In this document: piece by piece, positions 28,523 through 64,000 of the stretch | Layout: every line of letters starts with the position of its first letter | Position numbering within the stretch: position 1 is the stretch's first letter | Origin: a virus | Strand: one strand, 5' to 3' | DNA length: 64,000 bases | IMG/VR virus record: IMGVR_UViG_3300046657_000006 | Span: 1-64,000 of that record | The notes under the pieces: generated by a model | What the model was told of the DNA's origin: nothing | Databases searched by the model: none | What the model saw: the letters and a program-made list of their open reading frames with translations, nothing else | Position numbers and translations under genes: made by a program

Positions 28523-28553
28523 GACGACGCACTCTTAGCTAGGAGTAAAATTC

Positions 28554-29846: not shown

Positions 29847-29872
29847 CCTGTCATCGGGATGGGAAACACCCG

Positions 29873-30613: not shown

Positions 30614-30715
30614 TACGTTCTCCTTTAAGCTAACGTGATGTTCTATCGCGGGCGAGAATTTAGCCTCTCGCTCGCAACTAAATTTTCGGTAAGTATACCA
30701 TAGGAGGGCAACTAA

Positions 30716-30982
30716 ATGCCTGCTACTTTGACGATAACTCTCGCGGCGGGACAGAACGGATATTCCCCTGACGAGGCCGGGTTCGTGAAAGAAGAATTGC
30801 TCATTACGGGCGCGTCTTCGGCGGCGGCGGATACCGGAACCTATTCAACCCAAATGAAGCAGCCGCAGCGCGTAGAGTGTGGAACGTGCGTGTTTTCTAT
30901 CAGCGGGCAGACCGTGACCTTGACTGATAAGGTAGGTATTGGCACGGCTACGGCTGGAGCAACCGTTTACGGCTACGCATGA
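30716..30982 (+). CDS. Small virion protein candidate
   Basis: 88 residues, beta-rich and Thr/Ser/Gly-rich (MPATLTITLAAGQNGYSP..., QTVTLTDKVGIGTATAG), like head decoration or stabilising proteins. AGGAGGG precedes the ATG; its stop overlaps the next ATG. Located after the capsid gene. No family recognised. Confidence 0.55.
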   Translation: MPATLTITLAAGQNGYSPDEAGFVKEELLITGASSAAADTGTYSTQMKQPQRVECGTCVFSISGQTVTLTDKVGIGTATAGATVYGYA

Positions 30983-31719: not shown

Positions 31720-31729
31720 AGGAGATTGC

Positions 31730-33022
31730 ATGAGCGTTGTAGAGAAGCAGATTAGTCAGGGGTTCGCACCTGATGGAAGAATTTTTGAGCCGCCTAAAAC
31801 CAATCAAGAACTTGAACAGCCGAGATATTTGGCTTTTCTTGGTTCATTGATTGATGCCGAGATTGCACGATCCCGGTGGTGGACGAAAGCGGGAGGCATC
31901 GAGATTCAGAATCCCTGCCTTCGCTACGTTAAAAACTTTCTTCGCAAGGGACGTATCACCCCGCTGCTGAAAGACACGCATGACTTTCTTCCTTATAGCT
32001 ACGTTGAAAAAATGGTCGGCACCAACCCCTTGGGAGCTGGCTACTTTGCGCAGCCAATACCTCAAGGGTATGTTCCGCCAGCGCTGCCGCCGTCACAAGG
32101 GCAGTTCCAGCCGGGATTCGGTAACTTGGCAATTGGTGGCCCGTCACCGTACGGAAGTCTGGTAGGGCGTCTTGCGCTACCGGGAGAGCAGGTGGGCGCG
32201 ATTCTAACTGGCGCAGAAAACTTAACGCAAACTAACGTCCAGCGCGGCGTTGTGGAGCTGACCACGTTAAAGGGTCATCCTTATCGTCCTCAGCAAATTG
32301 ACGAGATTTATGTTGATCCAACTATTTGGCAGCTCCAGAAAACAATCTTTCCAACGTACCCAATACTCCCAACGCTGCTGGACGAGATAGAGTCGCTGCT
32401 GGACGAGGCGCGTATCCATACGTCGTTGATTTCCATCGTGGATGAAATGCACGAATCGCTAATTCAGTTCCGTGATTACGCAGACGCGGCGATTCAGAAC
32501 GTCCATCACATGATGCGAGAGTCTGCGGGTCGTGCTGGGTACATCCCGCGCTATACGCAGATGGATTTGGTGCTTCTTGAGCAATTGGGCATGGCGCGGA
32601 AAGACCGCGAGATTCGGCAGGATGCTAAAGTGAATCCGAATAGCCGTCTTGAGGAGATGTTTGCCGCGTGGCTACAGGCTCAGACTGAAGAAAAAGCGGA
32701 ATTAAAGCGAATGCGACAAGAGCAAGACGCGCCAATCATCACCGAAGACACCATGAAAGCCCAACCTGTAACTGAAATAATGTCTGACCTTGAAGGTTAC
32801 GACGGGTTTCCCGGAGCATCGGGTTATTCAGGATTCTCAGGTGCAGTGGCCACTACCGAGCATGAGGTAATAACCGCAAGTAGTGACGAGCGATTGCCCA
32901 ACCCTGTAATTCCACCGCTTGAAGTGGCAGAATTCGCCTGTAGCGGGTGTGGCAGGACTTCCCCTACCCTAGCAGGTCAGAAGGCGCACGAACGTCACTG
33001 TGAAGCCGTAAAGAAGGAGTAA
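31730..33022 (+). CDS. Virion-cluster protein with collagen-like segment and C-terminal zinc finger
   Basis: 430 residues. Most is helical and charged; near residue 355 comes DLEGYDGFPGASGYSGFSG, a short version of the GYSG repeat of the 49399 and 63534 genes, and the C-terminus holds CSGCGRTSPTLAGQKAHERHC, a C2H2-like finger. The DLEGYDGF string and its DNA recur in the 22462 gene. Probably structural. It follows the previous gene closely and abuts the next. Confidence 0.5.
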   Translation: MSVVEKQISQGFAPDGRIFEPPKTNQELEQPRYLAFLGSLIDAEIARSRWWTKAGGIEIQNPCLRYVKNFLRKGRITPLLKDTHDFLPYSYVEKMVGTNPLGAGYFAQPIPQGYVPPALPPSQGQFQPGFGNLAIGGPSPYGSLVGRLALPGEQVGAILTGAENLTQTNVQRGVVELTTLKGHPYRPQQIDEIYVDPTIWQLQKTIFPTYPILPTLLDEIESLLDEARIHTSLISIVDEMHESLIQFRDYADAAIQNVHHMMRESAGRAGYIPRYTQMDLVLLEQLGMARKDREIRQDAKVNPNSRLEEMFAAWLQAQTEEKAELKRMRQEQDAPIITEDTMKAQPVTEIMSDLEGYDGFPGASGYSGFSGAVATTEHEVITASSDERLPNPVIPPLEVAEFACSGCGRTSPTLAGQKAHERHCEAVKKE

Positions 33023-33772
33023 ATGGGCACTATCAACTCAATGATGGACGGCACGCTGATACGCTTAGATGATCCGCGAGCGCAGAGGCCGGGAAACGCC
33101 CAATTACTCCAAGAGGTTTGTAGTCAGATCAGAAATTTGTTCCGCCAGAAACGGAACTCAGGAAATGTATGGCAGTTTGGAACCACAAGTGTTGATGTTT
33201 CACCCGGAGAGAACACTTACCAGATAGGTGTTAACGATTTCGGAACTCCGCTTTCTGTAATAACCGTGAACGATACAGGCGACAGTAATTTTGTTGTTCG
33301 CCGCATTCCTTTTTACACCCCACAAGACCTTGCGTTTAATTGGGGGCTTCCGGCCAATGCGGGTTATTGGCTTACGGGGAACTGGAACGATCCGTGGCAT
33401 ACGGCACTTCGCTGCGCGATTTTTTGGACAAACAACCTTCCGTACATTCAATTTGAGCCTACCCCTCAATACGGATGTTCTTATTCCATTAAATACTTGC
33501 AGAACGCCAACAACGTAGGCGTCACAGCGTTAACCGCATCTCCGCTGCCGGATGAGGACTGTGATGTCGTGGAACTCCGTGCCGCCCTAGGGTTGCTAGC
33601 AATGGCAGAGTGGGAAGGTAACGATCCACAATCGAATTCAAACAAGCGCAAGGAAATGATGGTCACCTTGAGTCGGAACGAGCAACTTGCTGCTGAACAG
33701 TTCAACATAGCCAATTTGATTACGAATGCCCCCGGAGTTAAGACACGCGATCAGGCGATGCTTTCTTGGTGA
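33023..33772 (+). CDS. Head-tail connector-like virion protein
   Basis: 249 residues with a beta-rich core (GVNDFGTPLSVITVNDTGDSNFVVRRI) and a helical C-terminal half (VVELRAALGLLAMAEWEGNDPQS...). The size, composition and position between capsid and terminase fit a neck or adaptor protein. It begins at the ATG right after the previous stop. Its last 22 bases overlap the end of the opposite-strand nuclease gene. Confidence 0.5.
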   Translation: MGTINSMMDGTLIRLDDPRAQRPGNAQLLQEVCSQIRNLFRQKRNSGNVWQFGTTSVDVSPGENTYQIGVNDFGTPLSVITVNDTGDSNFVVRRIPFYTPQDLAFNWGLPANAGYWLTGNWNDPWHTALRCAIFWTNNLPYIQFEPTPQYGCSYSIKYLQNANNVGVTALTASPLPDEDCDVVELRAALGLLAMAEWEGNDPQSNSNKRKEMMVTLSRNEQLAAEQFNIANLITNAPGVKTRDQAMLSW

Positions 33773-43667: not shown

Positions 43668-46600
43668 ATGGACGAGGACTACGGAGATGTGATTTCTGCC
43701 GCGATGCCTACCCCCGCGCCTAAACTTACCAGAACGGTACGCGGAGCTGAGAAGCTTAAAGGCGTCCAACCCGATCTTGTAAATCATTGGAACAAACTTC
43801 AAGACGAATTCAGTAAGGCTGGCTTAAGCCCTGCGATCAAGTCTGGGTTTCGTACCGCTGAACAGCAAAACTCGCTTCATAGACGAGGCTATCCCACAAA
43901 AGGCAATGATGGGTACGTAAATATCTCCCCCCATCAAGAGGGGCGAGCGTTAGACATTTCTTTCTCTGCCGCCCAAAAACCCAAAGGCCGAGAGATTATC
44001 GCTGCGTATGCTAAGGCTAATGGTCTTCATGTTCCTTCTGATGAGCCGTGGCATCTAGCGATTCCGAAAGCACTAAAAGCACAACAAGATGACTATGCCG
44101 ATGTGATTGGCGCAGCGGTTCCGAGGGCTAAAACTGAATCTACAGCAACAGCGGATTCTTACGATGAGGTGGTAGCGGCTGCTGCGCCAAAGGGAAAACA
44201 GCCGTCGATTACTACCGCTTTAGATAAACTTACGGCAGACGTTACTAATCGCACGTCAAATATTAAAGCTCCCCGTCCTGCACATGAAGGCCAACCGCGT
44301 GCATCTACCGTGAACTTATCTTCAGATGAACTGCGCGTGATGAAGGGCGAGCAGCCTGTTGATCGTCAAGCCTACTCGCGACAGCAGGACGCGCAGGCGC
44401 GATTGAGCCGCATGCGGGATGAATCGTACCGTGAAAGACAAGCAAGAGAAGCGAAGGACATTGCGTGGCGTAAAGCGAACCAGCCCGAAATTGATCGGCA
44501 GACTGAATTGTACAAGCAAGACATTCGCAAGTCTGGTGGTAATGCTGTTCGATGGCTGACAGAGTTAGGTAAAAAGGGCGCTGGGCAAATGCTCGAAGTT
44601 TGGCCCGGCGACACGGCGAGAATTCACAGTGAGGCGGCAATACGCGCAGCCGAAGAAGAGGGAGCAAGTAGATCGCAACTATCTAAGGGCATACAAAATA
44701 TTGGCGCTGGTTTTATCGGTTCTGCTCCTGAACTTGGCGCAATGGCGTTAGGTATCCCTGCTCCTGCGGTGTTTGCTGGTGGCGGTGCAATCCGTTCCAA
44801 GTCAAGTGACCCGCTGGAAGTTGCCAATGTTGCCGAACACGGCGGGGCAACTGGATTGGCATACGAGATTCCCGGCGTTGGTGAGGGAGTGAAGAAGGTT
44901 CTCAGTGGCAGTGCCGCCACAGGGTTAGGCACGGCAGCGATTGATTTGGCATCGGGGGCGACCCCAAAGGAAGCCTTGATTAGCGGCGCGACTAACGCCC
45001 TTATGCGTGGTGTACCCGAAGCCGCAAGGATGCTCAAACATGGTGTCCCTGAACGCCCTGAAACCATAAGCGCCCAATTAGAACAGCGTGGTTATTCTTT
45101 AGTCCCTGAAGGAACTCCAAAACCGTCCATTCCGCGAGGCTTCAGAACAGAAAAGACACAAGATGGAGTTGTGTACTTCGATCCAAAAAGAATCAGCCGC
45201 GAAGAAATCAGAAACACTCCCACGCAAGAACTGCTTGGCCATTTAGAACCAAAATCGGAATCAACTACTGAAACCGTGGTAGCTAGAACTCCCGAAGGTA
45301 CAGAGATTCAGTCTTCAGCCGTTTCGCCCGAGAATGTAGAGAAACAAGCTGAAGTGATGCAGGAACAGTATCCCGCTGCCAAGATAGAAACAGGCGGCAA
45401 TGACCTTGCTGAAAAAGTGATTGCGGAGCGCGTTGAACCACAGAGGTTCCAACATCTTCAGTTTGGCGAAGTGGAGGCTCTACCTGATCAAGTTGGCGCG
45501 GGAAATGGCAGACTGAAAGTTGCTGAAGTTGCGAATCCCGAGAAGGTTCATTACGTCAAAAAGGCAGACTTACGTGGTCGCGGAAATGAAAGAATGGTTC
45601 CGCTGAAAACAGAACCTCAGAACATATCAACCGCGCCGCCGTTAAAACCTGAAACCGCTGCCGAGAATGCGGCGCGAATAGAAGACGCCAAGTCTCAACT
45701 TTCAGAACTCTCCCAAAAGAGAGGAGAAACGATTGAAACCCCCGTAGCCCCCAATAAATCCATTGACGCTGCGGATACTTCCGTGGAGGGGTTGGGGGCA
45801 ACCTCTCCATCTACTACTGCCGCTAAGAAGGCGAGCATGGCGGCTGATCGGGCAGAATTGGATTTGCCTGAACTTCCCCCTGCCGAACGTCGAAGTTGGC
45901 AAGAATCGCTCGACAAAGCGAAGGAAAAGGGCACACAGAACGCGGGTGTATTGGCCGATGAAGTTCTAAAGAGGCCGCGAGCGTTGAACGATACAGAGAC
46001 GGCGCAATTAGTTCTTCGCGCCCAAGAGGTAAAAAATGAACATAGCAGAGTAATGAAGGAAATCGGAGCCGCGAAGGACATTGAAACCATTCAAGCGAAA
46101 CGAGCGGAAGCGGAAGCACTTGAAGGGGAATTCGATAAACTAACTCAAGCGACAAAAGCATCCGGCACTGAAAAAGGCCGCAATCTGGCAAGCCAGAAAC
46201 TCACAATCAACCAAGACTTTGATTTAGTGAGCATGGTTCAGCGTGCCAAAGCCGCGAGAGGGCGAGAGCTGAGACCCGAAGAACGCGCCAAAATTGAGAC
46301 TCAGGCAAAACAGATTGAAGAATTGACTGCGAAACTTGCCGAAGCAGAAGACCGCGTCAAAGCTACGAGTCTGCAAAAAGAAATTGACAAGGTGGTTCGC
46401 CGTGGTCGCAGAGCAGAAACGAAAGCGACTCTTGATGATGAATTCGCAGATTTAAGAGCCCAATTCGCTCAAGCGCGAGCAGAAGCGCCAAGAGTGCAAG
46501 CGTCCGGTTTGGCGGGGTTAGACCCTGAAGGGAAACTAACAGTCTTGATCGGCAAGATGGCGCGGAACCGAGTGAAGGCGGGAACGGTTCAGGCTGAAGC

Positions 46601-48815
46601 CCTTGTGGATGAGATTTACTCTGCGATAAAAGAGCACGTTGAGGGCGTAACACCGAGAGACGTAAGAGATGTTATCTCAGGCTATGGAATTGAGAGCAAG
46701 GGACGTAATCAGTCTGAGGATGCAGTGCGATTGGGAACCATTCGAAGCGAACTTAAACGTCTTTCGGTTAAAGAAGATATAGAGGCAGGAAAACGGTTAA
46801 GCCCTGCTGATAAATCCCGTCAAACGCAACTTCTGAAGCAGGAAGCAGAGCTTCAACGGCGGATTGATCAGCGGGATTTCAGTCCCACGCCGAAACGCGA
46901 AGCGCCCGTTTACAGTCGAGAGACGCAGAAGATTCAAGACCGCGTTCAGAAAATCAAATCTGAGTATCAAGCAGAACTAGAACGTCAAAGTCCGTGGTAT
47001 TGGTTGAAAAACCTTTCAGGGATTCGTAAGGCGGGGATGCTCTCAGGCTATCTTACTCATGTCCGTAATATTGCGGGCACGGGTGGGTATATTGGTTTTG
47101 ATGAGGTTAGACGATTGCCGTCCGTAGTGGCCGACGCTGCGTTATCAAGCGTGACGGGGGTTCGGACTACCACGCTCAGTCCATCTGCAATGTTAGATGG
47201 AGTGCTTCAAGCTGTGAAAGTTGGCGGGCGTGAAGCGAAAGAAATCCTGAAGCATGGCGCACCAAAAGAACAACTAGAAAAACAGCAACTTCAGGAAATC
47301 AACACAGGCGTAAAAGCAATTGATAAGACTTTCAATTTAGTCTTTCGTGCCATGTCTGCATCTGACCGAGTTTTCTATCAGGGTGCTTTTAAGCGAAATC
47401 TAGTTGAACGTGCTCAAGCTCAAGCCAAAACCGAAGCGCGAACTAATAAATCCCTCGATTGGCGTACCCGTGCTAAAGAACTAACTGAGAACCCGTCCAA
47501 GGAAATGGATGCTGACGCGAAACATGACGCCTTAGTTGCGACGTTCAACAATAACAATCGGCTTTCAGACGCTATCAAGCGTGGACGCGGAGCGTTGGGT
47601 GCTGGTGGCAATTTTGCGCTGGACTTAGTTCTACCTTTTGATCGGACGCCAACTAACGTGATTGCAAGGGTGATTGAGGCAAGTCCCGCAGGGTACTTTA
47701 AGAACGCAGGACAAGCGGCTAAGGCTTTTTGGAACCGTAGTTTCACTCCCGCAGAGCAGAGAGCGTTTGTAGAGACTTTCGGACGTGCGACCACGGGAAC
47801 GGCGTTGACCGCTTTGGGATTTGCTCTGGCCGCCAAGGGGTTGCTGACTACAGATGATTATGGAACCACCTACCTTGAAGTTCGAGGGCGGAAAATCAAT
47901 CTGAGCGCGATTGCTCCACTGGGAACGCTATTGAGTGTCGGCGCGGGACTCCAAAAGCAACACGCCAAGGAAGATTCAACTAAGAGAAGTTACGCGGGAG
48001 CGGTTCTTAAACCTTTAGCTGATCAGCCATTATTAAAATCAAGTAGCCAAGTGTCTGATTTGGTGAAAGACCCGAACCGAAGCGCGGGGAAGTTTGTTGC
48101 TGGGCTAGCTTCTAGCTTCATTCCAATGAGCGGAGCGGTACGAACAGTAGGCGAAGCGATTGACCCCGCGCAGAAACGTTATCCCGACTCATCATTTTCA
48201 GAACAGTTCAAGCGCAATGTCCCTAAACTCAGAGAATCCCTTCCCGCAAGTCGCGTGAGACTTTTAGGTTCCGAAGTCAATAAGGCAACTCAAGAAGCTG
48301 AACGGCTAGGAGTTACCATCAAGGGAGCAGTAAAACAGCCTGACGAAACCTCGGAAGAATTTCAAAAACGTCAAGCGGTACAAAACGGAAACATCAAGGT
48401 TTTAATGGAAAACGTTATAGCTTTACCGGACTACGATAACGCCTCCGATGAGGACAAGACGAAGTGGCTGAAGCAAGCGTCTGAATATGCGTCTAAAGAA
48501 ACTCTTGAAAGTCTTCCTGAAAAGCCAGAGAAGAAGGAAGAGAAACAATTTCCAATGCCGTCAGCGAGCGTGGGATTTGAAAGTACATACCCTGCCGATG
48601 GCCTCGCAAAATATGAGCGCATGTCTGAAGCGCAACGTGTTAAAGTAAGAGATTCAATGGCACAGAAAGCGTGGATATTAACGCATTCTACGGCTCTTTC
48701 AGACGAAGAAAAGGCAGCGTACAAAGAGAGGTTGGATAAGCTCGGAATCACGCCTCGTCCAGCGGGAGAAAGGCCGAGGACAACAACCCTCAGGCAGCAA
48801 TTGATGGCACAGTAG
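43668..48815 (+). CDS. Giant virion protein with N-terminal M15-type peptidase
   Basis: 1715 residues. Residues about 28-135 form a VanY/M15-like peptidase: SGFRT (59-63), SPHQEGRALDI with H89 and D96, and PWHLAI with H129; these enzymes cut peptidoglycan cross-links. The remainder is a very long helical chain with coiled coils, Gly/Ala-rich hydrophobic stretches and a Pro-rich end. Short repeats DY.DVI.AA.P flank the peptidase at 4-13, 140-151 and about 160-171. Probably ejected with or ahead of DNA to open the cell wall. It is coupled to the previous gene by spacing (2 bases). Confidence 0.7.
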   Translation: MDEDYGDVISAAMPTPAPKLTRTVRGAEKLKGVQPDLVNHWNKLQDEFSKAGLSPAIKSGFRTAEQQNSLHRRGYPTKGNDGYVNISPHQEGRALDISFSAAQKPKGREIIAAYAKANGLHVPSDEPWHLAIPKALKAQQDDYADVIGAAVPRAKTESTATADSYDEVVAAAAPKGKQPSITTALDKLTADVTNRTSNIKAPRPAHEGQPRASTVNLSSDELRVMKGEQPVDRQAYSRQQDAQARLSRMRDESYRERQAREAKDIAWRKANQPEIDRQTELYKQDIRKSGGNAVRWLTELGKKGAGQMLEVWPGDTARIHSEAAIRAAEEEGASRSQLSKGIQNIGAGFIGSAPELGAMALGIPAPAVFAGGGAIRSKSSDPLEVANVAEHGGATGLAYEIPGVGEGVKKVLSGSAATGLGTAAIDLASGATPKEALISGATNALMRGVPEAARMLKHGVPERPETISAQLEQRGYSLVPEGTPKPSIPRGFRTEKTQDGVVYFDPKRISREEIRNTPTQELLGHLEPKSESTTETVVARTPEGTEIQSSAVSPENVEKQAEVMQEQYPAAKIETGGNDLAEKVIAERVEPQRFQHLQFGEVEALPDQVGAGNGRLKVAEVANPEKVHYVKKADLRGRGNERMVPLKTEPQNISTAPPLKPETAAENAARIEDAKSQLSELSQKRGETIETPVAPNKSIDAADTSVEGLGATSPSTTAAKKASMAADRAELDLPELPPAERRSWQESLDKAKEKGTQNAGVLADEVLKRPRALNDTETAQLVLRAQEVKNEHSRVMKEIGAAKDIETIQAKRAEAEALEGEFDKLTQATKASGTEKGRNLASQKLTINQDFDLVSMVQRAKAARGRELRPEERAKIETQAKQIEELTAKLAEAEDRVKATSLQKEIDKVVRRGRRAETKATLDDEFADLRAQFAQARAEAPRVQASGLAGLDPEGKLTVLIGKMARNRVKAGTVQAEALVDEIYSAIKEHVEGVTPRDVRDVISGYGIESKGRNQSEDAVRLGTIRSELKRLSVKEDIEAGKRLSPADKSRQTQLLKQEAELQRRIDQRDFSPTPKREAPVYSRETQKIQDRVQKIKSEYQAELERQSPWYWLKNLSGIRKAGMLSGYLTHVRNIAGTGGYIGFDEVRRLPSVVADAALSSVTGVRTTTLSPSAMLDGVLQAVKVGGREAKEILKHGAPKEQLEKQQLQEINTGVKAIDKTFNLVFRAMSASDRVFYQGAFKRNLVERAQAQAKTEARTNKSLDWRTRAKELTENPSKEMDADAKHDALVATFNNNNRLSDAIKRGRGALGAGGNFALDLVLPFDRTPTNVIARVIEASPAGYFKNAGQAAKAFWNRSFTPAEQRAFVETFGRATTGTALTALGFALAAKGLLTTDDYGTTYLEVRGRKINLSAIAPLGTLLSVGAGLQKQHAKEDSTKRSYAGAVLKPLADQPLLKSSSQVSDLVKDPNRSAGKFVAGLASSFIPMSGAVRTVGEAIDPAQKRYPDSSFSEQFKRNVPKLRESLPASRVRLLGSEVNKATQEAERLGVTIKGAVKQPDETSEEFQKRQAVQNGNIKVLMENVIALPDYDNASDEDKTKWLKQASEYASKETLESLPEKPEKKEEKQFPMPSASVGFESTYPADGLAKYERMSEAQRVKVRDSMAQKAWILTHSTALSDEEKAAYKERLDKLGITPRPAGERPRTTTLRQQLMAQ

Positions 48816-49064: not shown

Positions 49065-49399
49065 CCTTTATACCGGATACTAACGCAGGGGCGTGGTCGC
49101 AGCTTTTCATTCTCGGAGCTACTTGGCCCTCAACTACTATCACGATGACACGTGACGATGTTGTCGTGATTCCTGTTTCCGCTGCGTTATACATCTATTC
49201 TCCAGAAGGAGACTTACTGGAAACTTTTGCGGCGTCAATTAGCGGTGGGGGTGTAATGACAATCGGCCCCGTATCCGCCGCAACGACAGCGGCGTTTAGT
49301 TGGACTTACGGAAATTCCGTACTGAGGGTTACTGAAAGCGGGAGCGTGGTGACTGACCTCCTTGCTGGCAATGCGACGGTTCGCAATTACGCTGATTGA
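49061..49399 (+). CDS. Beta-rich virion-cluster protein
   Basis: 112 residues, beta-rich with Thr/Val/Ser repeats (WPSTTITMTRDDVVVIPVSAALYIYS), like small tail or base-of-fibre proteins. It overlaps the genes on both sides (ATGA, TGATG). No family recognised. Confidence 0.5.
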   Translation: MTFIPDTNAGAWSQLFILGATWPSTTITMTRDDVVVIPVSAALYIYSPEGDLLETFAASISGGGVMTIGPVSAATTAAFSWTYGNSVLRVTESGSVVTDLLAGNATVRNYAD

Positions 49400-50103
49400 T
49401 GAGTGATATTACTGTTAACATAACCCAAGGGCAGATTATCGTCGCGGAACTAAACCGGGGACAGTCGGGCTATTCCGGTCGTTCTGGATTCTCCGGTTAT
49501 TCAGGGGCAAATCCCGGCGCTTCCGGCTACTCTGGGTACTCAGGGAAAAGCGGTTATTCAGGAATCTCGGGTAAGTCGGGGTATTCCGGGGCGAGTGGTT
49601 TTTCAGGATACTCAGGACGGTCAGCATACTCAGGATATTCAGGAATTGCGACATCGGGATATTCCGGGTATTCCGGCACAAGTGGGTTTAGTGGTTACTC
49701 AGGGAAGTCAGGCTATAGCGGGATTTCGGGCTACAGTGGATATTCTGGGGCACTCGCAGGAACGCCAACAGTTTATGTCGCTCTGTTAACCCAAACGTCA
49801 ACTAATGCTCCTGTTGCGACCGTATTGGTTAACACGCTTGGAAGTACGCCAAGCTGGGGTTATACGAGTCAGGGTATTTACACTGCGACCGCGACAGGGG
49901 TTTTCACGGCGAACAAGACGGGAGTTTTCATGTCGCCGCTCCCGCATTTAAGTGCGACTGCGACCCAGATCGCAGAATACCAACACACTTCGGCAGACGT
50001 GATTACAATTCAAACTATGGCGCAAGATGGCACTAACAGTTTAAGTAGCCTCTCCAATGGGCGATTGACTGATACAATGATACGCGTTGAGGTCTATCCG
50101 TGA
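49399..50103 (+). CDS. Collagen-like (GYSG)n fibre protein
   Basis: 234 residues. Residues about 22-121 form an unbroken run of three-residue (Gly-X-Ser) repeats, mostly GYSG, GFSG, GKSG and GISG, with Tyr, Phe, Lys or Ile in the variable place; this is a collagen-type triplet with Ser where animals have Pro. It is followed by a folded beta-rich domain (TPTVYVALLTQTSTN..., DVITIQTMAQDG). Start at the ATG at 49399 (TGATG). Collagen-like tracts in phages occur in tail fibres and adhesive appendages as trimers. Ser and Tyr hydroxyls could carry sugars; see the 55073 gene. Confidence 0.8.
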   Translation: MSDITVNITQGQIIVAELNRGQSGYSGRSGFSGYSGANPGASGYSGYSGKSGYSGISGKSGYSGASGFSGYSGRSAYSGYSGIATSGYSGYSGTSGFSGYSGKSGYSGISGYSGYSGALAGTPTVYVALLTQTSTNAPVATVLVNTLGSTPSWGYTSQGIYTATATGVFTANKTGVFMSPLPHLSATATQIAEYQHTSADVITIQTMAQDGTNSLSSLSNGRLTDTMIRVEVYP

Positions 50104-55072: not shown

Positions 55073-58000
55073 ATGGATAGTCAAGATATTACCACGTCAC
55101 GCTTCAGCATTGTTATACCCACGTTCAGCAACGTTGAGGGGCTCCGACTCCTGCTCGCCAGTATTGTCGAATACACCAACCTCCAAGACGTTGAAATAAT
55201 TTGCGTGGCAAATGGCGCAAACGAAGAGACCCGAACTATCTGCCATGAATTTCCGGTTCTGCTGACGTGGCTAGATGAACCATGCGGGTACGCGGCAGCT
55301 ACGAACCTAGGCGTCAAGCGAGCTTCCGGCGAGTACGTTTTACTCTTGAATGACGATACTCAGGTTCTTGACAGTCCCAAGAACCAGTGGCTTGAAACGC
55401 TCTGTACTCCCTTCTCCGATCCTAAAGTAGCCCTGACAGGGATTCACGAAATCTACAGCCACGAAATCCGGCACAACTTTCCGCCGTTTTATTGTGTGAT
55501 GATCCGGCGAGAGATGTTTGAGGTAATTGGCTATCTTGACGAATCTTTTATTTCATTTGCCGAAGATTGCGATTTTGTGGCGCGACTGATTCGAGCAGGA
55601 TACAAGTACGTGAATGTAGATGCTGACGCCGCGTACAAGGGACATCAAATGGTCGGGACTTTCCCTCTCTACCATGTTGGTTCAGTCACCGTGCATCAGA
55701 ACCGTGAAGCCTATGAACAACAGGTGCAGAGGAATCTAACAATCTTGCGGGAGCGATATAAGAAACTTCGATTGTTAGTGGCAATCCCCAACTACGGAAC
55801 CGATAACATTGAGTACCTACAGCAAGTCGTAAACGAGTTGTGCTCATTCAAAGAATACGAAGTCAGCATAGTTATTCACAGCAGCGTACCGATGGTATTT
55901 GGGCATGAGCAAGTTACCGTTCAGTACCATGAAGCACCGCCCGATGGAGACTGGATAAACCTTGCATGGGAATGCCGCAAGACGATTTATGAAAACCGCG
56001 ATGCGTATGACCTGTTCCTTTACAATGAGAACGATCAACTTGTTACGGAGAGAAATATAGACGCCTTCCTGCGAGTGAGTGAAGTGCTACCCGAAGATAA
56101 AATTGCGGGATTCATTCGCTATGAAGACCACGAAGGCCAGAGATTCTACCCTGACTTTCACCGCAAATTTGTGTGGGATTCCAGTTCCGTGTTTCATGTT
56201 GGTGAATACGCTTTCGCTCACTTCACGAACCTGCATCAGGGGAGCTTTCTTGTTACTCGTAAACAGCTAGATCGAGCAATTGAGATAGCGGGTGAGAACG
56301 CCTTCTACAACATGCGCGGGAGAGTATGGAGCAGCCCTTACGATAGTCTAGCCAGAGTCTCCACTGACTTGTACGACACGGGTTTTGAGAAAGTAATTCC
56401 CGTTTCTCACTTTGATGACTTTCTCATTCACCATCTACCTGACAAGTATTACGGAGTCTACGACACGAAATGCGATGATGTAGTTATGCCGATTATCAAC
56501 TCAATGGTGAAGCGACCAAAGTACTCGATAGTCGTTCCCACTTTTCGACATTTATCCGATTGTCTCATTCCGTGCTGCGAGACGTTAAAGAAATACACCG
56601 ACCTCTCAAACATGGAATGCGTAATTGTCGCCAATGGGTGCGGAGACGACGGCACGCGAGAATATGTCGAATCTCTTGGCGAACCATTCCGCCTTATCTG
56701 GTTTGACGATGCCCAAGGCTTCACTCGTGCTACAAATGCTGGCATCCGTGAAGCGCGAGGGCAATATCTCGTGATGCTCAACAATGACGTTTATTTTACC
56801 GATCAGACCGTGAATGGCTGGCTGGATAAACTTCAATCTCTTTGGGACAAGGCAGAGAACCCTGCGGTAGTAGGAGCGTTGGTCGAGGACGTGTTTATCG
56901 GCAAGAAGTTTGTAGCGTTCTATCTCGCCATGACTTCACGAAAGGTTCTCGATAAAGTTGGACTCCTTGACGAGTCAGTATTTTCCTCTGGCGGCGAAGA
57001 TGTGGATTGGTGTATTCGCGCACAGAATCTTGGCTATGAAATCATCGGCAATCAGACAGTCTACGATGAGCACGGTGAGAAGCGATTTGCGATTGATTTT
57101 CCTATTCACCACTTAGGCGAGCAGACGGTTTTAGAGAACCCAAACTTCATGGAAGACTGGCAGAAGTCGAATGCTATTCTCACTGAGCGATACGGAACTC
57201 GCTATAGCATCGTCATTCCTACTTTTAATCACGTTGACGATCTACTGAGGCCGTGCATTGAAAGCATCATTGAACACACTGATTTATCACGGGTTGAATG
57301 CTTGATAGTTGCGAACGGTTGTACCGATCAAACGCGAGAGTTTGTTGAGTCTCTGGGTCATCCATTTAAACTTATTTGGGTTGATGAAAAGATCGGATTT
57401 ACCAAGGCTACGAATTTAGGGATGAAGGCCGCTGAGGGTAAGTACATAATCTTCCTTAATAACGACACGATCCTTAAAGGTGAGTGGATTCCAATTCTTG
57501 AGCAAGCGTTTATTGATCGTCCCGACTGTGGCGCTTCTGGGCCTCTCAAGTTTATTGGTGAAGAGGGTACGTCGAATGATTTTCTGATGTTCTTCTGCTG
57601 CATGATTTCGCGTGAGGCGATAGACAGGTGCGGCTACCTTGATGAAAGATTTGCTCCGGCTGGGGTCGAAGATGTTGATTACGGAATTCGCTTGCAACTT
57701 GCTGGCTACAAGCTCATTCAAGTGCCTGAAGGGGAAGCAATAGATCGTCGCACTGACCTCTCTAGTGGTTCATTTCCAATCGTCCACATGGGCAACGCTT
57801 CCTACGGTAAAGAAGAAGGCTGGCACGACATCCTGAAGCGGAACAATGAACTCTTAAAACAGAAGTTTCCCGAATACTTCAGTGGCATGAAGTGGCTAGA
57901 GACGGGAACGAACTGGTTTGAACTTCACAGGAAAATGAAAGAGATAGACCAACAAGTCTATTATGAGCTGTTTGAAGTCGATGTCTACAGCGTCCTGAAA

Positions 58001-61000
58001 GAAGAAGTCGCAGGCAAAACAATCATCGACATTGGGGGTAACAAGGGATACTTCTCAATCAAGTGCATAGAGTTGGGCGCAAAAGAATCTCATTGTTTTG
58101 AGCCTGTAAAATCTATCTACGAAGAATGTTTGGAGATGACGAAGGGCTTTCCGCAGATTCACAGCCACAACCTTGCAGTGCTAGACGGAAGCGTAGACAG
58201 CGTGACAATGCACGAGGATAGTTGGTGTTCGCATATTTGGGGAGAAGAAGGAACGACCACGCCTTGCGTCTCGTTGGAGAACGCTGTAAACGCTGCATAC
58301 GACGGGCACGACTTGGTGCTGAAGCTCGACTGCGAAGGTTCCGAGTATGAGATTCTACTTAACACCCCAAAAGAAGTGTTACGCAAATTTTCCACTATCT
58401 ACCTTGAAATCCATGAACTGCCTAACCCTCGGTATCGGGCACAAGGAAAGATGCTCTTAAGGCGCATCGAGTCGCTGGGATTTAAGGCGATAGTTGGCCC
58501 ACAGCCGGGAACGTGGTTTGACGATGGAAAGACGTTTATTCCTTCCCCAATTACCATGTACAAATGCCTCCGTCAGCCAGTAGTCAATGTAATTATTTCT
58601 ACCTATCAACGCCCTCGACTATTGAGAGAGGCGCTGGATTCGGTCTTAGCGCAGACTTACCGGAACATCAACGTGCTTGTGGTGGCGGACGGTAAGGATG
58701 AGCAAGTCGAGCAGATTGTCAGCAAGTATCAGGGACACGATATTTCATTTAAGTATTACGACATCCCGCACGATGGAAATATCGGCAGCAGGGCAAAGAT
58801 TCACGGCATAGAACAAGTTAAAGAAGGCTATGTATGTTTTCTTGATGACGACAATGTTCTACTGCCTGAGTACGCGGAAACGATGGTGAGCCTAATTACC
58901 CCTGAGAAGCAAGTAGGTATTGTTCAGGTTCTCAAGCATCGCACATTCCCTAACGGAGAGAAGGCGATCAAAACGATCCCGCCTGATGGAAGGTTCCCTG
59001 AATGGGAAAACATCGACACGCTAAACTTCCTAGTTGAGCATTCGATTGCAAAGAAGTGTAAAGAATCATGGATGCAGCAGGACGGGATGGTCAATCAAGA
59101 TTTCAAGTTCATTACTGAGTGCCTGAAGCATACGGGATATGGATTTGAGCCCAAGATTCTCGCTCACCATCGAGAAGTCAAAGAGGACGACGCGCCTAAA
59201 TCGAAAGTGTGGGATGTATTTCCGTTCTTCCAAGAATTTGACGTGTTGGAACTTCGTTTGAATGAGCTTGATTCCGTCGTGGATAAGTTTGTGATCGTGG
59301 AAGCGAACATGACGCACGCGGGGAATCCAAAGCCCTACTATCTAAGCGAGAACATGGAAAGGTTCGCCAAGTGGAAAGATAAGATCATTATTAAACAAGT
59401 TGACCTGACGACTCTTAATTTCTCGCTATTCGACTACGATCCCACTTGGGTAAGAGAGCACTATCAACGTGACGCGGCCAGAGAGGTTCTCTATGCTTAT
59501 TGTGCCCCGCAGGACTTCATTATCGTCGGGGACGTGGACGAGATTCCCCGCGCCTCAAAGGTCAAAGAGTACATAGAAAGCAATCCTGACAAAGCGGGCG
59601 TGTTGGTACAAAGTCGGAGCATGTACTACTTGAACTACAGGTGCGTGAAGACTGATGAGCCGCAGTTAAACTCCAAGATTCTGCCTTACTTGATGATGGG
59701 TTCGTGTTCGCTAAACGATATTCGGTTTGCTGACAAAGAAAACTTATTGCCGACCATGCGGATAGAAGGCGCTGGATGGCACCTAACATTTTTGGGTGGT
59801 CTGGATGCGGTTACACAGAAAGTAAGAGCGTGGGCGCATCAGGAGATTGGCGAGGGACTAAGCGATGAAAACATTGTTGCACGGGTAGACGCAGGCCAAG
59901 ATATTTACGACTCAGCAAACTCTGAGTGGGAGCTTGTCGAAATAGACGAAACATTTCCTAAGTACGTGCAGGAACATCAAAAATCGTTAATACATGATGG
60001 GCTTATCAAGCCCGTCATCGCCACTACGATAATTCCGTTCAAAAAACCTCGCTCACCGATTGGTATTTTGAAGCCTACCGTGACCGCTTGCGTGAGCACT
60101 AAAGACAGATATTTTTCCACGCTGCCAATGTGCATTGCGGCGATTGCAAATCAAACTCGCAAGCCTGAGAAGTTGGTAATCTATGACGATGGTGAGCAGT
60201 TGGACTTACGCGAGCATGAGCCTTACGAGGCCATTTTTCGCATGTTGGAAGAACAAGGAATCAAGTGGGAAGTGGTCGCGACTCCGCGTAAAGGGCAAGT
60301 GACTAATCATCAACATTGCTTAGACATGGCAGATACTACGTTCGTCTGGAGAGTTGACGATGATTTAATTCCGTGTCCTGACAACCTTGAACGACTGCTC
60401 AATACTATCCGCGATTACAGTCCCTCTCGTGATTTCAGTGAACACTCGATTGGCGCGGTAGCAGGGCTGATTCATCACCCGCATAATGTAAGACCGTTGC
60501 CGGATTCAGTGACGGGGAAGCTCGCGGACGTGTCGCTAGGCTTAAATATGCAGTGGTTCGCTTTTTCCGGTTCTCCGCGAGTTGTGGAGCATTTATACAG
60601 TTCGTTTCTGTACAGAGTTTCAGCGGCCAGAGAAGCGGGTGGGTATCCAATTAACTTATCTGTTTGCGGGCATCGTGAGGAGAGCATATTTTCGCATCAG
60701 ATACATCGTGCGGGCTACGTGCTGCTAATACAACCGGACGCCAAGTCCTATCACCTTCAAGCCGCGACCGGAGGCATCCGCGCTCACTCTGCACATCCTG
60801 AATATTGGGAGCATGATGAAGCTGTATTCCAAGAATACTTGAGAGTATGGGGAGTTGACTTGCGCGAGATGAAGTTAATTGCATTGGATTGCGGAATTGG
60901 CGACACGTTCGCATTCAAATCGATACTCCCCGAAATATATAAAACTTACCCCGATAAAAACCTTGTGCTCGCGGTGTGTTATGAAGAAGTGTTCAAGGAT

Positions 61001-61150
61001 ATTATTGGACTTCAGATGGTTTCCATAGCAGACGCAAAACTGTTGCTCGGCTCTCGTTTTGAAGACCATTCTGTATACAAATGGATGGCTGAAAAGGGGT
61101 GGGCTGGCTCACTAACTGATGCTATGATGATGTGTTATGGAACAGCTTAA
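55073..61150 (+). CDS. Poly-glycosyltransferase with FkbM-type methyltransferase
   Basis: 2025 residues, a chain of enzyme domains seen from motifs: GT2 (about 10-230, NDD at 93-95); a GT-like segment (233-478); GT2 (483-705, NND at 570-572); GT2 (711-935, NND at 796-798); FkbM-type methyltransferase (970-1165, IDIGGNKGYFS); GT2 (1170-1365, DDD at 1258-1260); GT17-like (1376-1640, GDVDEIPR at 1486-1493); GT2 (1668-1930, VDDD at 1761-1764); and the N-terminal half of a GT9-like domain (1933-2025, GIGDTFAFKS). Several transferases in one chain suggest stepwise assembly of an oligosaccharide, perhaps capped by O-methylation. Substrate unknown: virion fibre, host surface glycan or phage DNA are all possible. 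The last domain is completed by the separate gene at 61997. Confidence 0.85.
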   Translation: MDSQDITTSRFSIVIPTFSNVEGLRLLLASIVEYTNLQDVEIICVANGANEETRTICHEFPVLLTWLDEPCGYAAATNLGVKRASGEYVLLLNDDTQVLDSPKNQWLETLCTPFSDPKVALTGIHEIYSHEIRHNFPPFYCVMIRREMFEVIGYLDESFISFAEDCDFVARLIRAGYKYVNVDADAAYKGHQMVGTFPLYHVGSVTVHQNREAYEQQVQRNLTILRERYKKLRLLVAIPNYGTDNIEYLQQVVNELCSFKEYEVSIVIHSSVPMVFGHEQVTVQYHEAPPDGDWINLAWECRKTIYENRDAYDLFLYNENDQLVTERNIDAFLRVSEVLPEDKIAGFIRYEDHEGQRFYPDFHRKFVWDSSSVFHVGEYAFAHFTNLHQGSFLVTRKQLDRAIEIAGENAFYNMRGRVWSSPYDSLARVSTDLYDTGFEKVIPVSHFDDFLIHHLPDKYYGVYDTKCDDVVMPIINSMVKRPKYSIVVPTFRHLSDCLIPCCETLKKYTDLSNMECVIVANGCGDDGTREYVESLGEPFRLIWFDDAQGFTRATNAGIREARGQYLVMLNNDVYFTDQTVNGWLDKLQSLWDKAENPAVVGALVEDVFIGKKFVAFYLAMTSRKVLDKVGLLDESVFSSGGEDVDWCIRAQNLGYEIIGNQTVYDEHGEKRFAIDFPIHHLGEQTVLENPNFMEDWQKSNAILTERYGTRYSIVIPTFNHVDDLLRPCIESIIEHTDLSRVECLIVANGCTDQTREFVESLGHPFKLIWVDEKIGFTKATNLGMKAAEGKYIIFLNNDTILKGEWIPILEQAFIDRPDCGASGPLKFIGEEGTSNDFLMFFCCMISREAIDRCGYLDERFAPAGVEDVDYGIRLQLAGYKLIQVPEGEAIDRRTDLSSGSFPIVHMGNASYGKEEGWHDILKRNNELLKQKFPEYFSGMKWLETGTNWFELHRKMKEIDQQVYYELFEVDVYSVLKEEVAGKTIIDIGGNKGYFSIKCIELGAKESHCFEPVKSIYEECLEMTKGFPQIHSHNLAVLDGSVDSVTMHEDSWCSHIWGEEGTTTPCVSLENAVNAAYDGHDLVLKLDCEGSEYEILLNTPKEVLRKFSTIYLEIHELPNPRYRAQGKMLLRRIESLGFKAIVGPQPGTWFDDGKTFIPSPITMYKCLRQPVVNVIISTYQRPRLLREALDSVLAQTYRNINVLVVADGKDEQVEQIVSKYQGHDISFKYYDIPHDGNIGSRAKIHGIEQVKEGYVCFLDDDNVLLPEYAETMVSLITPEKQVGIVQVLKHRTFPNGEKAIKTIPPDGRFPEWENIDTLNFLVEHSIAKKCKESWMQQDGMVNQDFKFITECLKHTGYGFEPKILAHHREVKEDDAPKSKVWDVFPFFQEFDVLELRLNELDSVVDKFVIVEANMTHAGNPKPYYLSENMERFAKWKDKIIIKQVDLTTLNFSLFDYDPTWVREHYQRDAAREVLYAYCAPQDFIIVGDVDEIPRASKVKEYIESNPDKAGVLVQSRSMYYLNYRCVKTDEPQLNSKILPYLMMGSCSLNDIRFADKENLLPTMRIEGAGWHLTFLGGLDAVTQKVRAWAHQEIGEGLSDENIVARVDAGQDIYDSANSEWELVEIDETFPKYVQEHQKSLIHDGLIKPVIATTIIPFKKPRSPIGILKPTVTACVSTKDRYFSTLPMCIAAIANQTRKPEKLVIYDDGEQLDLREHEPYEAIFRMLEEQGIKWEVVATPRKGQVTNHQHCLDMADTTFVWRVDDDLIPCPDNLERLLNTIRDYSPSRDFSEHSIGAVAGLIHHPHNVRPLPDSVTGKLADVSLGLNMQWFAFSGSPRVVEHLYSSFLYRVSAAREAGGYPINLSVCGHREESIFSHQIHRAGYVLLIQPDAKSYHLQAATGGIRAHSAHPEYWEHDEAVFQEYLRVWGVDLREMKLIALDCGIGDTFAFKSILPEIYKTYPDKNLVLAVCYEEVFKDIIGLQMVSIADAKLLLGSRFEDHSVYKWMAEKGWAGSLTDAMMMCYGTA

Positions 61151-62000
61151 AACATCTGGCGTTTATCTCATTTTGAACACTCTTAATAGTCGAATTTATA
61201 TTGGGTCTGCGATAGACGTTCAAAAGCGTTGGAAAGAGCATCGAGGGACTTTACGAAAAGGGACGCATGTAAATCGCCACTTGCAGCGAGCGTTTTCTAA
61301 ATATAGTGAGGCTGCTTTTGAGATATTAATGCTGGAATATACCCTTCCCCACAAAGATGCTTTAATGATGAGAGAGCAACATTACTTAGACTGGCTACAG
61401 CCCTTCGGCTCTGACGGATACAACATTTGCAGAAAAGCTGGCTCTGTTTTAGGTGTAAAACGTTCTCTTAAGCACCGTGAGCAAATACGACAACGCATGA
61501 TTGGAAACATCCCGTGGAACAAGGGCAAAAAACGTCCGCCTTTTTCAGATGAGTGGAGGCGTAAGATGGGACGGCCCGGCGAGTCAAACCCGTTTTATGG
61601 GAAACAGCATTCTGTTAAGACGCGAACAATCCTTAGTGTTAAGGCTACCGAGCGGCTAAGTGACCCAACCAAGAATCCTATGTACGGGACTCACTTGCCA
61701 AGCGAAAAGAATGGAATGTTTGGAAAAACGCACCCCCCTGAAGTTCGAGAACGCATGGCGGTCAACAAGGGCAAAAAATTCAGCCCCGAAGTGCGTGAAA
61801 AGATGCGTTTAGGGCAAAGGGATGGACACAAATCTTCTACTCCTGTAATCCAAATGGACATGCAGGGTAATGAATTAACGCGATATCCGTCTGCCCCTAA
61901 AGCAGCAATAGCGGTCGGCACGTCACTATCTAATCTACGGTGTTGCTTGTTAGGTAGAAGTTCTACCGCCAAAGGCTATAAGTGGAGATATGCAGAATGA
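61137..62000 (+). CDS. GIY-YIG homing endonuclease inserted in the GT9 region
   Basis: 287 residues. The N-terminus has the GIY-YIG form GVYLILNTLNSRIYIGS with RWKEH and a later MREQHYLDWLQ; the middle has NUMOD3-like repeats (GKKRPPFSDEW..., GMFGKTHPPEV) and the end a NUMOD1-like DNA-binding segment. It overlaps the preceding stop by 14 bases and its stop overlaps the following ATG, so it is inserted exactly between the two halves of a GT9-like domain. A homing nuclease cuts genomes lacking it and copies itself in. Confidence 0.9.
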   Translation: MEQLKTSGVYLILNTLNSRIYIGSAIDVQKRWKEHRGTLRKGTHVNRHLQRAFSKYSEAAFEILMLEYTLPHKDALMMREQHYLDWLQPFGSDGYNICRKAGSVLGVKRSLKHREQIRQRMIGNIPWNKGKKRPPFSDEWRRKMGRPGESNPFYGKQHSVKTRTILSVKATERLSDPTKNPMYGTHLPSEKNGMFGKTHPPEVRERMAVNKGKKFSPEVREKMRLGQRDGHKSSTPVIQMDMQGNELTRYPSAPKAAIAVGTSLSNLRCCLLGRSSTAKGYKWRYAE

Positions 62001-62518
62001 TCTTGATCTCCCCCTACGCCGCCAAGTTAAGAGACAGGGAAGGCATCAACCCCAAAAACTATCCCCACTGGTTACAACTCGTTGCGCTCTTAAAGCACCG
62101 CCGCTACCAAACCACTCAGATAGGTGTCTCGGGCGAAGAACGCATAACGGGCGTGGATTACTTTGTTGTCGATAAGCCCTTGGCTGAAATCGCAAGAATG
62201 GCTAGCAACGCGGAACTCGTAATCTCCGTAGATAGCTTCTTGCCCCACTTGTGTCACGCAGAGAAAATCAAGACGCCTGTGATAACGATTTTTGGGCAAA
62301 GTGATCCTCTCGTTTTTGGCTATCCCGATCACGTCACACTACTCAAAGACCGCAAGTATCTTCGCGAGCTTCAGTTTCGACCGTGGGAAGAAGCGACTTA
62401 TGATCCAGATGCGTTTGTGATGCCCGTGGAAGTCGTAAAAGTAGTAGACGAGTTATACCATTCCGGCAAGCTACTAAAATGCGTAAATGCAGGGTTCGCT
62501 TCATCTGCAAATGGCTAA
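61997..62518 (+). CDS. C-terminal half of a GT9-like glycosyltransferase
   Basis: 174 residues beginning MILISPYAAKLRD, with GVSGEERI and a SVDSFLPHLCH motif, IFGQSDPLVFG. These are the C-terminal half of GT9-type (heptosyltransferase-like) enzymes, in which that half binds the nucleotide sugar. The N-terminal half is the end of the 2025-residue protein. Because both halves are intact and directly flank the homing nuclease gene, they probably assemble into one enzyme. The ATG overlaps the nuclease stop. Confidence 0.8.
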   Translation: MILISPYAAKLRDREGINPKNYPHWLQLVALLKHRRYQTTQIGVSGEERITGVDYFVVDKPLAEIARMASNAELVISVDSFLPHLCHAEKIKTPVITIFGQSDPLVFGYPDHVTLLKDRKYLRELQFRPWEEATYDPDAFVMPVEVVKVVDELYHSGKLLKCVNAGFASSANG

Positions 62519-63005
62519 TACCCTCCGCGCCCTCAATCCCGCCACAGAGCAAGAGTTATTCTGCGAAGCGTTCAACTGGCGTACAAGCCCAAAGAAACAC
62601 ACCCGCGTAGACCGGATGCCTTTTGAGCAATTCTCTGCCGACTACTCAAATCAGGTGGTAATGGGGTTGTTCAATGGGGAACTTTGCGCGGTCTATATGT
62701 TCATTGAAGTTGCTCCGAAGGAATTTGAGGCGCATTTTAGCTCACGAAAAGACGCTTCTCATGCCGATGTATTTGCAGGAGCGAAGACAATGGTTGATTG
62801 GTTTCACTCTCAGGGAGCAGTGATAACGGCGTCAATTGTTGAACGAAACCGCCCTTTGAGAGCCTTTGTTGAGTCTCTTGGATTCGTGCTTGAAAAAACT
62901 GCTTGCCAAGAAGTTAAAGTAAAGGGTAAGGTAGAGTCCGTTAAATACTTGTCACGGATGGATTACCACGATCAGCCTAACGGCACGCTACGTCAGTCGC
63001 CTTAA
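62511..63005 (+). CDS. GNAT-like acetyltransferase-fold protein
   Basis: Start taken at the ATG at 62511, overlapping the previous gene; the frame is open to 62487. The 164-residue product has the general GNAT order: an alpha/beta N-terminus, VVMGLFNGELCAVYMFIEV, then AG(A)KTMVDWFHSQGAVITASIVERN(R)PLRAFVESLGF, close to the acetyl-CoA-binding turn and beta-strand. Similar proteins are found near podophage tail genes and modify amines or proteins. Function inferred. Confidence 0.7.
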   Translation: MANTLRALNPATEQELFCEAFNWRTSPKKHTRVDRMPFEQFSADYSNQVVMGLFNGELCAVYMFIEVAPKEFEAHFSSRKDASHADVFAGAKTMVDWFHSQGAVITASIVERNRPLRAFVESLGFVLEKTACQEVKVKGKVESVKYLSRMDYHDQPNGTLRQSP

Positions 63006-63533: not shown

Positions 63534-64000
63534 ATGCCTCTTAATTCGACCTATGTAAAAGATGTCGCGGTGACTAACGCGGATAAGACTATCACTGTCT
63601 CGGAAGACGTAATTACCTTCACGATAGCCAGCGGTCAGATAGCGACACTTCCTCCAGCGAAAGACTGCATCAACACGCCTCAGACGGCAAAGATAATCAT
63701 TAACGCGGGCGGATCAGGCGGTAATTTAACTATTGCGGCTCCGTCGGGTAACACACTGATTGGGCAGGATACATTGCTTCCCGGCGCGACGGCTTTAGTC
63801 AACGCGATGCGAGCGACGGTCTGGTCGTCAACGGGTGGATCGGGTGCTCAAGGTGCTTCAGGGTACTCCGGTTATTCAGCTTACTCTGGCTTCAGCGGAG
63901 CGTCTGGATTTAGTGGGTTCAGTGGAATTTCCGGCAAGTCTGGATTCAGTGGTTACAGCGGAATTTCAGGATTCAGTGGATATTCGGGAATCAGCGGATT
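63534..64000 (+). CDS. Collagen-like fibre protein (cut by window edge)
   Basis: Start at ATG 63534 with AGGAG 8 bases upstream. About 155 residues are visible: a beta-rich N-terminal domain (MPLNSTYVKDVAVTNADKT..., a 100-residue body) then GASGYSGYSAYSGFSGASGFSG and further GFSG, GISG, GKSG and GYSG repeats running off the window. The repeat type is the same as in the 49399 gene, though that gene has its repeats first. Likely a trimeric surface fibre; full length unknown. Confidence 0.8.
   Translation, partial: MPLNSTYVKDVAVTNADKTITVSEDVITFTIASGQIATLPPAKDCINTPQTAKIIINAGGSGGNLTIAAPSGNTLIGQDTLLPGATALVNAMRATVWSSTGGSGAQGASGYSGYSAYSGFSGASGFSGFSGISGKSGFSGYSGISGFSGYSGISG

Follow-up and report, generated by a model that had tools for sequence, protein, structure and literature searches.

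Glycosylation of virion proteins by phage-encoded enzymes has been reported for mycobacteriophages. The nearest described precedent for several glycosyltransferase (GT) domains carried on one viral polypeptide is provided by the A064R and A111/114R proteins of Paramecium bursaria chlorella virus 1 (PBCV-1), which serve the synthesis of a virion glycan without host machinery, and of which A064R ends in an O-methyltransferase (PMC7826918). The subject of the present analysis is a 2025-codon open reading frame (ORF) in a 64,000-nucleotide stretch of viral DNA, hereafter the window (positions 1 to 64,000 of IMG/VR record IMGVR_UViG_3300046657_000006), together with the gene cassette to which that frame belongs. 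Like both PBCV-1 proteins it is a virus-encoded multi-GT polypeptide, and like A064R it includes a methyltransferase. However, PBCV-1 is a eukaryotic virus, its glycan is N-linked to the capsid protein, the two polypeptides are of only 638 and 860 residues with three domains, and neither a split GT9 enzyme nor a collagen-like substrate is involved; the likeness drawn here is one of domain content. The reading favoured here, at a probability of about 0.58, is that the phage encodes its own O-glycosylation machine, which would place methyl-capped glycans on the serines of its Gly-X-Ser fibres by means of a GT9-like enzyme made as two polypeptides.

Two bacterial systems resemble separate parts of this proposal. 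TibC, a GT9-type enzyme, glycosylates serines of a fibrous autotransporter, with Ser rather than Thr at the mapped sites (PMC4358343), and the TibC/AAH heptosyltransferases share the GT9 fold with the C-lobe protein of the phage (GT9C, vide infra). However, TibC is one polypeptide which forms a dodecamer, whereas in the phage the C-lobe stands as a protein by itself and a far shorter segment, joined to a GT2 module, is the candidate N-lobe. BclA is a collagen-like spore protein whose short glycan contains rhamnose and ends in a methylated sugar (PMC6222408). The likeness lies in collagen-like repeats of a surface fibre that carries such a glycan; by way of contrast, BclA is a spore protein and the phage repeats are Gly-aromatic/aliphatic-Ser rather than Gly-Pro-Thr, and the comparison concerns the substrate.

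The frame contains no internal stop codon and is identical in the parent IMG/VR virus record of 72,865 bases. Pfam analysis of the whole protein detected five distinct Glycos_transf_2 stretches (E = 1e-85), and the frame can be divided as follows:

55073..61150, plus strand: multi-domain glycosyltransferase/methyltransferase ORF, 2025 residues, ATG start
55073..55765 (residues 1-231), plus strand: module 1, GT2 (LNDDT; ED), PF00535 5.1e-16
55766..56518 (residues 232-482), plus strand: module 2, segment without family, possibly GT-A-like (YNEND), with a bacterial homologue (L433)
56519..57190 (residues 483-706), plus strand: module 3, GT2, PF00535 3.2e-16, 40% identical to module 4
57191..57862 (residues 707-930), plus strand: module 4, GT2, PF00535 4.1e-21
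57863..58570 (residues 931-1166), plus strand: FkbM-type methyltransferase, PF05050 2.6e-6 and TIGR01444
58571..59179 (residues 1167-1369), plus strand: module 6, GT2 (DDDN), PF00535 1.2e-20
59180..60055 (residues 1370-1661), plus strand: module 7, GT17 (GDVDE), PF04724 6.6e-25, with a homologous module in the related locus L004
60056..60808 (residues 1662-1912), plus strand: module 8, GT2L, the divergent core GT2-like module (WRVDDD, HREE), PF00535 1.8e-10, 46-row family
60809..61147 (residues 1913-2025), plus strand: module 9, GT9N, candidate reduced GT9 N-lobe with an invariant GxGD, kept in all relatives

Scored in isolation against PF00535, modules 1, 3, 4, 6 and 8 returned 59.5, 60.2, 76.1, 74.6 and 41.4 bits (curated cut-off 23.3), and all five possess a DXD-like motif near segment residue 93-103 (NDD, NND, NND, DDD, DDD). 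The GT17 module scored 88.3 bits with PF04724, above the cut-off and spanning profile positions 72-310 of 348, and the methyltransferase module 28.1 bits with PF05050 (cut-off 22.7) and 59.9 bits with the NCBIfam model TIGR01444 (cut-off 37.7). An initial annotation, made from the letters alone, had listed at least five GT2-type modules, one GT17-like and an FkbM-type methyltransferase in a single frame, all of which were borne out by Pfam and NCBIfam; its additional 'GT-like' segment (module 2) gained no family match and went unconfirmed. It had also allowed that most segments might prove not to be GTs, or the frame to be an artefactual fusion: what was found were GT profile matches and an uninterrupted frame. 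Fusion of separate genes by sequencing or assembly is ruled out by the absence of internal stops and by an independent fusion of 1329 residues in L004.

Modules 1, 3 and 4, with mutual identities of 31-40%, look like old tandem copies, and module 4 is the one most commonly found as a separate upstream ORF among relatives. The possible GT character of module 2 was suggested by a YxEND motif spotted by eye only; the module has one standalone bacterial homologue, L433 (285 residues, 35% identity, E = 1.2e-31). L433 itself, from genome G158 of the same class as the Opitutae metagenome-assembled genome G031, is also without known family, and together with module 2 it is a candidate for an undescribed GT-A-like family.

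Megablast against phage records produced no matches, nor did an IMG/VR search with the whole 2025-residue protein as a single sequence; an IMG/VR search with a two-sequence GT2L-GT9N alignment produced 543 relatives, the best 80 of which were fetched. In these viruses the genes follow a common order, namely a Gly-X-Ser collagen-like fibre, GT2/methyltransferase, GT2L with the short GT9N, and GT9C, and this cassette was present in 69 non-redundant units. The unusual length and variety previously noted for the 2025-residue protein were upheld, in that it is the longest among them and the extreme member of a virus-wide cassette. A methyltransferase occurred in 53 of the 54 ORFs directly upstream of GT2L-GT9N (49 of class I families and 4 FkbM), often fused to a GT2 module, and is therefore a normal core part of the cassette. 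Successive grades of fusion were represented by methyltransferase (MT)-GT2L-GT9N (519 residues), GT2-MT-GT2L-GT9N (730 residues), GT2-MT-GT17-MT-GT2L-GT9N (1329 residues, L004) and the 2025 residues described here, the modules being separate ORFs or smaller fusions elsewhere; in two further records, poly-GT ORFs of 1081 and 1413 residues lay close upstream of GT2L. Consequently, the 2025-residue ORF is a fused cassette with extra GTs, the largest variant seen, and not an isolated oddity. The suggestion that the order of its domains might encode the order of sugars in the glycan found no support, module sets and order both varying between relatives.

The same gene order was evident in Methylophilaceae phage P19250A, in which genes _0023 to _0026 encode a Gly-X-Ser protein, a methyltransferase, GT2L-GT9N and GT9C, the latter two being 35% and 41% identical to the window proteins with an ATGA overlap between their genes. 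By comparison, the P19250A cassette is minimal and unfused, is without extra GTs or an endonuclease, and has been annotated as hypothetical or tape-measure. A search of 84,980 bacterial and archaeal genomes, which needed short conserved patterns and for which the count is a lower bound, yielded at least three cassette loci, all split and one of them (L243) also with fibre repeats; this scarcity suggests that the unit belongs essentially to viruses. No description of the cassette, of the split GT9 or of the Gly-aromatic-Ser fibres was found in the open-licence literature.

The fibre proteins which the initial annotation had left out, and which are the likely target of the enzymes, lie on either side of the GT genes:

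49396..50103, plus strand: Gly-X-Ser collagen-like fibre protein, the proposed substrate, with PHROG tail-fibre matches
63534..64000 (to record position 64076), plus strand: second Gly-X-Ser tail protein, repeat tract

The first of these proteins contains 23 triplets in long runs, with Ser/Thr at 96% of Y positions, and further Gly-X-Ser tracts of the same phage are located at record positions 64107-64652 and around 68248-69718. The tracts are collagen-like in consisting of uninterrupted Gly-X-Y triplets, and the P19250A counterpart matches PF01391 at 5.6e-124. Position X is usually taken by Tyr, Ile or Phe, and with proline nearly absent the formation of a triple helix is uncertain. Record positions 63534-64076 and 64107-64652 encode two small, similar proteins with Gly-X-Ser tails that end at the stop codon, the repeats being confined to the tails rather than forming central rods. 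At 68248-69718 (L083:7349-8819) a Gly-X-Ser tract halts at 68460 and a second begins soon after in a different frame, possibly as a result of separate genes, slippage or sequence error.

Linkage between fibre and cassette was evident in both directions. Among 32 non-redundant loci picked only for the GT, dereplicated at 90% and with at least 3 kb of upstream sequence, fibre repeats lay beside the cassette in 31, the exception being L058. Conversely, GT2L was detected in 62 of 120 stretches chosen by a Gly-Tyr/Phe-Ser DNA pattern alone as against 0/37 random stretches, a difference which persisted after dereplication (28/70 versus 0/37, p = 1e-6), and when whole records were searched, GT2L turned up in 8 further members of this reverse set that had at first been negative. 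Equivalent stretches chosen by a Gly-Pro-Thr pattern (n = 120) contained GT2L in no case and a GT9C-like match in one; for any cassette module, the two repeat types differed with a Fisher p of 4e-22 (before dereplication).

These data bear directly on two other ways in which the cassette might be understood. The enzymes could modify host lipopolysaccharide (LPS) or another glycan of the host surface, perhaps so as to exclude superinfecting phages. This is consistent with the action of WaaC/WaaF-type GT9 enzymes, whose fold GT9C matches, on the LPS core, and with what has been proposed in print for the glycosyltransferases of host-recognition regions in pelagimyophages (PMC7029224). However, a general surface modification does not predict that a Ser-rich repeat should adjoin the genes in 31/32 loci, the linkage holds for one type of fibre repeat and not for other collagens (62/120 versus 1/120), and hydropathy analysis detected no stretch of transmembrane strength in the 2025-residue ORF or GT9C, unlike membrane-anchored GtrB-type enzymes; a role in host LPS is therefore considered unlikely. 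It is more improbable again that the cassette and the fibres merely travel together as neighbours in a host-recognition region while the enzymes have some other, third substrate. The known hypervariability of tail-fibre regions (PMC7029224, PMC10202952) and the existence of Gly-X-Ser phages without any GT2 match would accord with such co-travel, but the adjacency and gene order are near-constant over diverse contigs, and in large phages an analogous MT-GT2-GT9 ORF adjoins a collagen of another, Thr-rich kind. That ORF, of 941-951 residues, was recorded in three IMG/VR loci (L430-432; parent contigs of 210, 78 and 267 kb) as MT-GT2-TPR-GT9 with the GT9 undivided and several Gly-X-Thr collagens on its flanks, and may possibly be a separate, parallel version of the same association for Thr-type fibres. 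Glycosylation of phage DNA bases is scarcely credible as the function: phage GTs such as those of T4 are capable of it, and inside the general GT2 signal there was a single weak match to a PHROG of DNA glucosyltransferases (E = 6e-7), but location and linkage with fibre genes argue otherwise, and the subset of window proteins that was scanned included none recognised as the product of a base-hypermodification gene.

The glycosylation of fibres as proposed here would involve a GT9-like enzyme whose donor-binding half is coded for downstream of the 2025-codon frame:

61997..62518, plus strand: GT9 C-lobe (GT9C), separate protein, PF01075 2.4e-7, ATG at 61997 (alternative listed start, GTG at 61982)

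This protein is securely a GT9 C-lobe. It gave a PDB profile match to WaaC 180-296 and an hhalign value of 9.5e-14 against a GT9 C-domain profile in which 56 bacterial sequences were combined with WaaC, WaaF and WaaQ. Its AlphaFold model, with a predicted local distance difference test score (pLDDT) of 91, superposed on the C-domains of WaaC, WaaF and TibC at Z 15-16 (WaaC 180-323, Z 15.6; TibC 218-395, Z 16.0), the next fold scoring 12, and its invariant K, E, D and H residues sit within the stretch aligned to the donor-binding C-domain of WaaC. The initial annotation had recognised half a GT9-like module in the 2025-codon frame. The other half does exist, as this separate ORF, but the division is no accidental truncation, the C-lobe being a separate gene in every relative; correspondingly the frame is real, while the end assigned to it falls inside a larger functional unit.

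GT9N, the 113-residue tail of the 2025-residue protein, is not recognised by Pfam, and its GxGD motif is invariant across relatives. When hhalign was restricted to GT9 N-domains, GT9N aligned at the GD motif with E of about 0.08, which is not significant, and its homology to the GT9 N-lobe is accordingly suggestive at most. Given a secure C-lobe and this alignment, division of GT9 at the lobe boundary is likely but not proven. Throughout the loci fetched, GT9N and GT9C were never fused into one polypeptide (0 among 145 GT2L-GT9N ORFs and 136 GT9C ORFs), and 65 of 70 distinct junctions showed an exact 4-nucleotide overlap (59 ATGA, 6 GTGA), the arrangement expected were their translation coupled.

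Alternatively, GT9C might function by itself, as a regulator or a binder of nucleotide sugars, and GT9N might be a small domain unrelated to it, an interpretation compatible with fibre glycosylation in that it concerns one step. The lack of statistical significance for GT9N, and its length of only about 80-110 residues compared with about 178 for the WaaC N-domain, lend this some substance. Against it stand the invariable adjacency of the two genes with the 4-nucleotide overlap in 65/70, the alignment by hhalign of the invariant GxGD in register with the GT9 N-domain, and the full GT9 downstream of GT2 within one ORF in the large phages; it is regarded as rather unlikely, though less so than any of the other explanations above. 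Alg13/Alg14 offers an example of a GT-B enzyme parted into two polypeptides at the lobe boundary. That pair is a membrane-bound eukaryotic uridine diphosphate N-acetylglucosamine transferase of another family, and its resemblance to GT9N/GT9C is of principle only.

A model of GT2L-GT9N (pLDDT 90) had as its best fold matches the polypeptide N-acetylgalactosaminyltransferases (Z 20.5), followed in a near tie by other GT-A enzymes (18-19). This match fits a peptide Ser acceptor, the likeness to GT27 being one of fold only. WaaC and WaaF were absent among the 50 fold matches listed for this model, a list filled by the GT2 domain.

The only thing separating the 2025-codon ORF from GT9C is a homing endonuclease gene:

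61137..62000, plus strand: GIY-YIG/NUMOD3 homing endonuclease gene between GT9N and GT9C, PF01541 1e-12 and PF07460 3.5e-11

Its start overlaps the end of the 2025-codon ORF and its TGA stop overlaps the GT9C ATG. A homologous insert was present only in the near relatives L003 and L004, the junction being empty in all other relatives, and the gene fits the free-standing type in its GIY-YIG domain, NUMOD DNA-binding motifs and a site that is empty in relatives. No Rfam intron family was detected in 60900-62300, and the endonuclease ORF fills the interval. A group I intron or intein as cause of the split is ruled out by this absence of an Rfam intron and of space beyond the endonuclease ORF, and is also countered by relatives which are split without any insert. 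Since P19250A and other relatives are split without the endonuclease, the division of GT9 most likely preceded the arrival of the endonuclease, which would have invaded a pre-existing boundary. Homing endonucleases between coding pieces of one enzyme are described for Aeh1 nrdA/mobE and for gene 43 of Aeromonas phage 25 (PMC2988022); the invasion of an existing boundary, as here, is what the same review suggests may apply to phage 25 (PMC2988022).

Taken together, the following sequence of events can be proposed. The fibre, with Ser at nearly every third tract position, would be made late from genes neighbouring those of the enzymes; its repeats and linkage are directly evident, and co-expression is presumed. 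GT2L might then add the first sugar to Ser, or it might alternate with the GT9-like enzyme. The latter would be assembled from the short N-lobe fused to GT2L and the free donor-binding C-lobe, made in step via the 4-nucleotide overlap: the separate ORFs, the overlap and the identity of the C-lobe are observed, and assembly, coupling and the identity of the N-lobe are putative. The GT2, GT17 and methyltransferase modules, whose domains are plainly present, would lengthen the chain, with methylation as the probable cap. In this phage the cassette genes would have been fused into one frame and the endonuclease have entered the GT9N/GT9C junction with overlapping stops and starts kept on both sides.

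Several observations weigh against this reading. The fibre is a putative substrate, proposed on account of genomic linkage, and the relatives are the best 80 of 543, many of their contigs being fragments. Module 2 (residues 232-482) matched no Pfam or NCBIfam family and gave an empty result with hhalign against GT2 profiles, and the fold lead of GT2L over polysaccharide GTs is a near tie, within about 2 Z units. When GT9N was compared with the GT9 N-domain, 8 of 60 shuffles scored equally well or better, and against the bridging sequences 33 of 100 did so; profile bridges by way of 56 bacterial GT9s and of L430-432 were not significant. Furthermore, several long Gly-X-Ser virus records, among them G232 (84 kb), G221 (51 kb) and G203 (46 kb), are without a GT2 match, and the repeats can thus exist without the cassette enzymes. 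The three records named represent natural controls for the viability of unglycosylated repeats.

A broader proposition, to which slightly less than even odds are given, is that a widespread, virus-restricted system glycosylates many Ser residues of proline-free Gly-aromatic-Ser fibres to form a methyl-capped coat, using a bipartite GT9-like enzyme whose N-lobe is fused to a peptide-acting GT2 and, at its fullest, to a whole line of GT2, GT17 and methyltransferase modules. Multi-domain viral glycan synthesis is known mainly from eukaryotic giant viruses, and the same idea would here be realised in phages, in a recurrent cassette whose candidate substrate chemistry can be read from the Ser at nearly every third position. 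If true, it would explain the role of numerous 'auxiliary' glycosyltransferases and methyltransferases encoded close to phage tail genes, supply a simple annotation rule, and open to study both a GT-B enzyme split by nature and an assembly line for glycans contained in one protein.

Elsewhere in the window, an ORF at 62487-63005 overlaps the end of GT9C and has weak PHROG matches to an acetyltransferase and an internal virion protein (E 0.01-0.08). The five consecutive ORFs of 246-508 residues at 26996-33772 have no PHROG matches at E 0.01, and relatives of the phage terminase are all but absent from phage records. Positions 43668-48815 encode a putative virion protein of 1715 residues with a VanY/endolysin-like N-terminus, and positions 5399-6499 on the minus strand the phage's own DNA polymerase III beta clamp, in which all three domains are present.

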